A stretch of DNA of 44,925 bases, from the NCBI GenBank assembly GCA_022848865.1, contig JAJISE010000011.1, forward strand, positions 1 to 44,925. Reading direction: 5' to 3'. This document shows positions 16,811 to 17,267 of this stretch, in pieces (position 1 is the first letter of the stretch; each line of letters opens with the position of its first letter). This DNA comes from Candidatus Thermoplasmatota archaeon (GTDB taxonomy: Archaea; Thermoplasmatota; Thermoplasmata; RBG-16-68-12; JAGMCJ01). A program made the position numbers and the translations under genes. The notes below the pieces were generated by a model. It made no database searches and had not been told where the DNA came from. It saw only the letters and a list, made by a program, of their open reading frames with translations.

Positions 16811-16855
16811 TTTTCGAAAAAAGAAGATAGGTGGGGATCACCCCACAGCTATCTT
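16811..16855 (-). terminator. Hairpin followed by a T-run (minus strand)
   Basis: AAGATAG-GTGGGG (16824-16836) and CCCCAC-AG-CTATCTT (16841-16855) can form a 13-bp stem with a 2-base bulge and a 4-base loop. On the minus strand the stem is followed by CTTCTTTTTTCG. It therefore looks like an intrinsic terminator or stable 3' end for the small unit transcribed from 16990 or so. Confidence 0.5.
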
Positions 16856-16882
16856 AACGGGATGGGCACGGAACTCAGTCAT
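16838..16882 (-). CDS. Candidate 14-codon ORF overlapping the 16875-16949 ORF
   Basis: ATG at 16882 overlaps the end of the preceding 24-codon ORF by 8 bases in another frame. It encodes MTEFRAHPVKIAVG and stops inside the terminator hairpin. It may be translated by coupling or may simply be the 3' leader of the transcript. Support is weak and rests on position only. Confidence 0.2.
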   Translation of the reverse strand: MTEFRAHPVKIAVG

Positions 16883-16949
16883 CTTCATAGTCAGTGGAGC
16901 AACCGTATGAGCGGTAGACATCTTCCCAACTGTAGTGGTTTTCGTCCAT
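16875..16949 (-). CDS. Candidate micro-protein, 24 residues
   Basis: ATG at 16947-16949 is preceded by a perfect-quality Shine-Dalgarno (GGGGTGA, minus strand 16956-16962) with a 6-base spacer. A TATA element (minus-strand reading TATTTAAA, 16988-16995) lies some 40 bases upstream. The acidic product begins MDENHYSWEDVYRSYG and ends CSTDYEDD, with one Cys and four Tyr. The unit ends in a hairpin plus T-run about 20 bases after the overlapping second ORF. Promoter, ribosome-binding site and terminator within 190 bases argue for a dedicated small transcript, either a micro-protein or a regulatory RNA. No family is recognised. Confidence 0.4.
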   Translation of the reverse strand: MDENHYSWEDVYRSYGCSTDYEDD

Positions 16950-16987
16950 CTTTCTTCACCCCTGTGAGATGAGAGAAGTCCTCGTCC

Positions 16988-16995
16988 TTTAAATA
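16988..16995 (-). promoter_or_regulatory. TATA box of the small unit at 16811-16965
   Basis: The minus-strand reading is TATTTAAA, between the end of the 17031 gene and the micro-ORF. It predicts a transcription start near 16965, just before the Shine-Dalgarno. Confidence 0.4.
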
Positions 16996-17030
16996 CGTAA
17001 GAAGGGGGGAGTGGAGTGAAAGTGCTCGCG

Positions 17031-17267
17031 TCAATAGAACTGTGTGTGAGAGAGCACCTGCTTCACGATGAGCGCAAAGGAGAGGGACAGCACGACCGTC
17101 CCCCAGTCAGCGACCCCGAGAGCGAAGAGCCCCAGGGAAATGCCCACGATGACGAAGAAGGCTCCCAAGAGCACCTTGAGGTCGATATCGTCAAGGAAAA
17201 GAATGAGTATTCCAAGAGCCACGAAGAGCACGGTCCCCGAGACTAGCGCGGTAACAAGAGCGTCCAT
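17031..17267 (-). CDS. Small membrane protein, three predicted transmembrane helices
   Basis: This 78-residue protein is almost entirely hydrophobic: helix 1 about residues 3-25 (LVTALVSGTVLFVALGILIL), helix 2 about 30-48 (LLGAFFVIVGISLGLFAL), helix 3 about 52-68 (TVVLSLSFALIV), ending in a short polar tail. The frame is open further upstream but becomes Arg/Pro-rich and antisense to the arcS gene end. ATG at 17267 with a TATA-like element near 17301-17309 is the sensible start. No family is recognised. Confidence 0.6.
   Translation of the reverse strand: MDALVTALVSGTVLFVALGILILFLDDIDLKVLLGAFFVIVGISLGLFALGVADWGTVVLSLSFALIVKQVLSHTQFY

Follow-up and report, generated by a model that had tools for sequence, protein, structure and literature searches.

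A small stand-alone gene next to tRNA-Gly(TCC)

The window, by which we mean the whole stretch of 44,925 nucleotides that was analyzed, contains on its minus strand a 24-codon gene (16949..16875) for the predicted acidic microprotein MDENHYSWEDVYRSYGCSTDYEDD, with a net charge of about -7. All features given below with window coordinates lie on the same strand. The ATG at 16949 is preceded, at a distance of exactly 6 nt, by the Shine-Dalgarno-like sequence GGGGTGA (16962-16956), and further upstream are the TATA box TATTTAAA (16995-16988) and the promoter element ACTTTCACTCCACTCCCCCC (17023-17004), which is composed of an ANTTTC hexamer, here ACTTTC (17023-17018), and a C-tract and is located 28 nt upstream of the TATA hexamer. 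On the 3' side, the motif CATCCC (16864-16859) lies between the stop codon and a 13-bp hairpin (16855-16824; 7 + 6 bp with a 2-nt bulge), which together with the following T6 forms a terminator-like end (16855..16817). The hairpin has a predicted energy of -17.3 kcal/mol and a z score of -4.7 with respect to dinucleotide shuffles, of which 0/200 were as stable. The next gene downstream, and a conserved neighbor, is tRNA-Gly(TCC) (16776-16701); the segment 12066-16268 codes for a 1,400-aa protein with many tetratricopeptide repeats. The upstream neighbor is a 78-aa hydrophobic protein without a family match (17034..17267), whose stop codon precedes the ANTTTC element by 8 nt. Also located upstream is a tRNA-guanine transglycosylase/PUA protein that contains DUF5591.

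A sequence-only reading of this DNA had described the TATA element, the GGGGTGA sequence, the acidic ORF and the hairpin with its T-run as a self-contained small transcription unit, and we found these parts as described; the ANTTTC/C-tract element, the CATCCC motif and the downstream tRNA-Gly(TCC) had not been mentioned. The notion of a self-contained unit is also supported by the sequence, given the gene's own promoter and its terminator-like end. The tRNA-Gly gene lies beside the gene in much of the archaeon's own order, is convergent in many genomes of the family designated f4, and is not adjacent in other families; because of its sometimes convergent orientation, it is regarded as a separate unit. 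In part of the family f2 (loci L006 and L023-L025) this tRNA contains an intron, and in genomes G018 and G014 the interruption is such that ARAGORN fails to recognize the gene.

The same reading had noted a 14-codon ORF (MTEFRAHPVKIAVG; 16882-16838) that overlaps the 24-codon ORF by 8 bases. This ORF exists, but it is not conserved in relatives: within the genus, it is merely a by-product of the C terminus ending in GATGACTGA, in f2 it is shortened and altered, and in f4, whose main ORF ends with GACGACGACGGCTAA, it is absent. It was thus rejected as a gene. The Shine-Dalgarno sequence is kept in the genus, where the leader is short, and genus g8 of f2 has GGTGA at the corresponding position. 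In genus g2 of f2 and in many f4 members, the start codon is about 24 nt past the TATA box, and judging from this spacing these genes look leaderless. In a global fold of the transcript from the archaeon's own genome, GGGGUG pairs with CAUCCC. Sequestration of the Shine-Dalgarno sequence by CATCCC was nevertheless rejected, since the whole transcript is no better folded than shuffles (z = -0.01) and since the leader or the complementary sequence is missing in many homologues.

Distribution and coding selection of the microprotein family

DNA searches retrieved near-identical loci in four genomes of the same genus and loci with 72 to 76% identity in f2, where the ORF encodes MDYDHYSWEDMYDSLGCSSSYDDD or MANTEVDHYSWEDVYDSLGCSPSYDDD and tRNA-Gly(TCC) is again located downstream; an example of the f4 homologues is SWQDVYASYGCSLDFDVSDDDG. 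We then used profiles of increasing size. A seven-peptide profile detected homologues in nearly the whole order. In all, 34 of its 37 genomes have a homologue at E < 0.03, and the three members without a match (G020, G031, and G036) are represented by genomes that are 65 to 81% complete. A 17-member profile extended the family to about 90 of the 250 class genomes sampled, and a profile of 42 members carried it beyond the class, where at least three genomes (G253, G264, and G286) have a homologue, each with the core, the promoter and the TATA box.

The family core reads [HYC]-[SG]-W-x-[DE]-[VIM]-Y-x-x-x-G-C and is followed by an acidic tail. Positions S7, W8, Y12, G16, and C17 are invariant or nearly so in the aligned homologues, none of which has a hydrophobic stretch or membrane-spanning segment. 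The length of the peptide ranges from 24 aa at the locus described here to about 70 aa in relatives, as in G013, with its longer ORF of about 70 codons. The 42 members gave no match beyond chance in Pfam, NCBIfam, or PDB, and a search for viral relatives found none. A bacterial candidate from Anaerolineales (L106) was rejected, since its reading frame resembles a HAD-type hydrolase and the match is attributable to chance; weak profile matches in f11, f19, and f22 (e.g., L144 and L148) were also taken as chance because they lack the promoter.

To assess selection, pN/pS was calculated by the Nei-Gojobori method over 18 core codons. In frame 0, the ratio was 0.06 in f2, 0.09 in f1, 0.13 in f8, 0.14 in f12, 0.20 in f9, 0.29 in f14, and 0.31 in f4, with a range of 0.06 to 0.32 across nine of the larger families, and the shifted frames of the same families gave about 0.8 to 4.8. 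Small, divergent comparisons were less clear, with 0.98 in f5 (two sequences) and 0.52 in f3 (two copies from one genome). In addition, the stop codon varies between TGA, TAA, and TAG among homologues. According to these substitution patterns, purifying selection on the 24-codon ORF family is strong and confined to the coding frame, and this restriction to frame 0, combined with the interchange of stop codons, indicates a translated protein family, although there are no ribosome-profiling data. As inferred from comparative genomics, the locus is thus a member of an unannotated microprotein family that is conserved across much of the Thermoplasmatota.

The 3' part of the locus is conserved in a different manner. 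A hairpin, usually with a T-run, follows the stop codon in most homologous loci, and its stem is 92% paired over f1, f2, f6, and f8, with double changes at three pairs, which is far above slid controls; by this measure, what is conserved in the hairpin is mainly its structure, via compensatory changes. CATCCC is present between the stop codon and the hairpin in 52/80 homologous loci (shuffle mean, 3.3; maximum, 10). In G013, both follow the new stop codon of the extended ORF and can therefore be assigned to the 3' untranslated region. Their role beyond termination is unexplained, and an extra RNA function is not excluded, since the hairpin is kept as a structure and is preceded by CATCCC. The sequence-only reading had left the choice between a microprotein and a regulatory RNA undecided and had suggested asking whether relatives keep the peptide or only the fold. 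The peptide is conserved, so the microprotein is backed at the protein level; an RNA function in addition to it remains possible. Loss of the ORF, the Shine-Dalgarno sequence and the hairpin in related genomes would have counted against the unit, and the ORF, the start context, the hairpin and the TATA box are all kept in homologous loci.

A promoter element shared with DNA repair genes

The sequence upstream of the TATA box conforms class-wide to ACTTTC-ACTCA/GGTGA-CCYCC. An ANTTTC hexamer starting 22 to 36 nt 5' of a TATA-like hexamer was observed in 55 of the 80 homologous loci, representing 19 of 27 families, and the distance is 26 to 31 nt in most loci; shuffles yielded a mean of 0.85 and a maximum of 3 loci. 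The shuffles for the ANTTTC and CATCCC counts were mononucleotide shuffles and the loci are related by descent, and the family count is hence the safer of the two. Eight families of loci have no recognizable hexamer at the right spacing. When families were scored for the element and the microprotein, 19 had both, 6 had neither, and 3 and 3 had only one of them (Fisher P = 0.007). The families with neither are f15, f19, f22, f27, f28, and f31, comprising 92 genomes. In f11, the element is present without a recognizable microprotein; its G210 locus keeps the element, the TATA box, CATCCC, the hairpin and tRNA-Gly, but the peptide core is not recognizable, which leaves room for either an RNA function or an unrecognized peptide.

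The pattern ACTTTCRSTSACCYC matched about 145 times in the 250 class genomes, compared to about 6 times for the reversed pattern, with several sites per genome and up to 15. The genes behind the class sites that were fetched include those for RadA, Ssb/RPA-like proteins, Mre11, MCM, NurA, DprA, Hjc, and topoisomerase, as well as N6/N4 DNA methyltransferase, a GyrI-like protein, and several TnpB/OrfB proteins. Within the archaeon's genus, the exact 15-nt element was absent save for one site in G002, and a search allowing two mismatches gave no excess over the control; for this reason, a pattern combining element and TATA box was needed in the order. This pattern, TTTCAC-N-CYCC-N-TTAWA, gave 41 matches in ten genomes of the order, compared to 2 in the control. 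The genes downstream of these sites code for the microprotein, RadA, a third paralogue that is RadA-like, XPD/Rad3, PolB, a HARP-domain protein, a protein without a Pfam match that was recognized as NurA-like by eye, and a zinc ribbon resembling the C terminus of B12-dependent ribonucleotide reductase. The archaeon's own genome has only two strict sites, those of the microprotein and of the RadA-like ATPase, and before its radA the element is degenerate, AGTTTTACTCATCTCC-N10-CTTATA. In f2 and f6, radA promoters carry the element and the radB promoters of the same genomes do not, which provides a paralogue control. Taken together, these promoter comparisons make it well supported that the microprotein gene belongs to a putative regulon with DNA repair genes.

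Several further observations concern the reach of this element. Across the phylum, the element and a TATA box are found before genes for RPA/SSB, Mre11, RadA, XPD, PolB, and others, and example loci of the putative repair regulon are L183, L190, L197, L207, L246, L309, and L326. The RadA-like ATPase paralogue has about 250 aa and a weak Rad51 match (L317:1569-2315 on contig C19 of the archaeon's genome, G000, and L306, L313, L314, and L333), and its promoter is almost identical to that of the microprotein. A second tiny family with the element is the zinc ribbon of 29 to 45 aa (L334:586-720, L184, and L191), which lies upstream of MCM in f2 and resembles the C-terminal tail of B12-dependent ribonucleotide reductase (NCBIfam NF006417; E value, 1.6e-4). 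Transposon-encoded TnpB/OrfB_IS605 genes at L188, L192, L193, L203, L204, L210, and L217 have the repair-type element, as if IS605-type elements had captured a host damage promoter. In the soil relatives L219 and L234, the element site is followed by an intein-interrupted protein with a topoisomerase VI subunit B-like N terminus; this name is derived from the N-terminal sequence, and Pfam shows intein domains.

Possible function and comparison with known systems

The ACTTTC hexamer and the set of genes agree with a DNA damage response, but its spacing does not, and there are no expression or damage data. The simplest account of the data is a repair regulon of the ANTTTC type in Thermoplasmatota, of which the microprotein is a widely kept member. 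The gene would then be a stand-alone unit, with its own promoter and a hairpin/T-run terminator, for an acidic cytosolic microprotein that is most likely coinduced with recombination and replication-repair genes in an SOS-like DNA damage response, coinduction being inferred from the promoter element common to these genes. The SW-E-D/E-V-Y---G-C core probably forms a short helix, leaving the acidic tail free. The S-x-x-E/D at the beginning of the core is a helix-capping sequence. In the AlphaFold model of the relative L121, residues 9 to 16 form a helix and the tail is unstructured, albeit at low confidence (mean pLDDT, 65). The modeled helix is short and bears W, V, Y, and L; together with the Gly-Cys end and the acidic tail, this would fit a docking peptide. 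Such a peptide probably docks on a replication, repair or cell cycle protein and modulates it in the style of a checkpoint protein or RecA modulator; with the partner being inferred, a recombinase/RPA modulator and a checkpoint inhibitor are the leading options. We consider it probable, but by no means certain, that the microprotein is a DNA-damage-responsive effector peptide that binds a protein partner via a short helix, where induction, helix, partner, and effect are all inferred.

Other explanations were weighed against this one. The transcript itself may be the active product, either with a dual function or as a purely regulatory RNA for which the peptide is secondary; CATCCC would then be a seed pairing near the start codons of target mRNAs (GGGATG), and the hairpin would be a stabilizing 3' end. 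The frequency of CATCCC, the compensatory changes in the stem, the longer ORF of G013 with both features after its new stop codon and the G210 locus all speak for an RNA. However, strong amino-acid-level selection in one frame needs translation, and CATCCC and the hairpin sequence are absent or different in the peptide-keeping families f9, f12, and f18, so that we judge a primarily RNA-based function unlikely, if worth keeping in mind. The arrangement of a short ORF and a terminator hairpin, beside tRNA-Gly(TCC) in much of the order, is also that expected of a leader peptide or attenuator for this tRNA or another downstream gene; this possibility is largely refuted by the loci with a convergent tRNA, the tRNA is not adjacent in other families, there is no run of Gly codons, and it is amino acid identity and not codon content that is conserved, which makes a leader very improbable. 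That the ORF arose by chance in a terminator-containing spacer is favored only by its short length of 24 codons, an explanation that conservation and coding selection refute and to which we attach next to no weight.

A further alternative accepts the protein but not the trigger. The shared promoter could belong to an S-phase or general DNA metabolism program, with the microprotein not as a damage-induced effector but as a small, constitutive accessory subunit of the replisome or of a complex for repair. Genes for MCM, RPA, PolB, and topoisomerase are among the targets of the element, and vertical conservation is very broad. Yet recombination genes dominate (RadA, Mre11, NurA, Hjc, DprA, RadA paralogues, and XPD), TnpB and DNA methyltransferase genes are also targets, and ACTTTC is the damage element of Sulfolobales. 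A replication or cell cycle regulon therefore appears improbable, although the trigger could be the cell cycle rather than damage, since replication genes are also members. A more far-reaching version of our reading, namely, an SOS-like ANTTTC-ACTCA-C-tract DNA damage regulon and, within it, a phylum-restricted, widely kept family of helical microproteins of 24 to 50 aa that are not enzymes but serve in a damage checkpoint or modulate a recombinase, seems to us to have somewhat better than even chances of being correct. Transcriptional sensing of and response to DNA damage are poorly known in Euryarchaeota-type archaea, and the ANTTTC system has been described in Sulfolobales. For another phylum, the present data provide a candidate regulon whose promoter code can be read, as well as a tiny conserved protein whose function is unknown and which current family libraries fail to detect.

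The UV-inducible promoters of Sulfolobales require a nonpalindromic A(N)TTTC at -39 to -44, the upsE site being ACTTTC (PMC5817253), and the element is bound by Orc1-2 (PMC9738581). The element described here shares with it the exact upsE hexamer upstream of the TATA box, before DNA transfer or repair genes (PMC5817253, PMC9738581). It differs in occurring in another phylum, in being followed by ACTCA and a C-tract, and in preceding mainly recombination genes. The hexamer is not found at the Sulfolobales position, just 5' of the BRE; it lies at about -53 to -58 if the TATA box is taken as -30, i.e., about 14 bp, or at least roughly one turn of the helix, further upstream, and because of this greater distance, the regulator may differ. 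The Orc1 copy number was uninformative as a marker of an Orc1-2-like regulator, a non-initiator paralogue of Orc1: there are two Cdc6/Orc1 matches in G000 and mostly two as well in the large element-less families f15 and f22, so that a pair of copies is frequent whether or not the element is present. Like the unannotated small proteins of ≤70 aa found by Ribo-seq in Methanosarcina mazei (PMC11456600), the microprotein is an unannotated archaeal protein, but it belongs to another phylum and is defined by comparative genomics only. With the bacterial SOS division inhibitors SidA, DidA, YneA, and SosA, it shares its tiny size and, putatively, a DNA-damage-type regulon; these inhibitors possess a membrane segment and work at the divisome, whereas the microprotein is acidic and without a hydrophobic stretch. 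DinI of Escherichia coli is an SOS-induced small acidic RecA modulator of about 81 aa with its own fold. While the 42 homologues of the microprotein have no sequence or domain match to a known family in Pfam, NCBIfam, or PDB, the microprotein resembles DinI in being small, acidic, and apparently coregulated with a recombinase.
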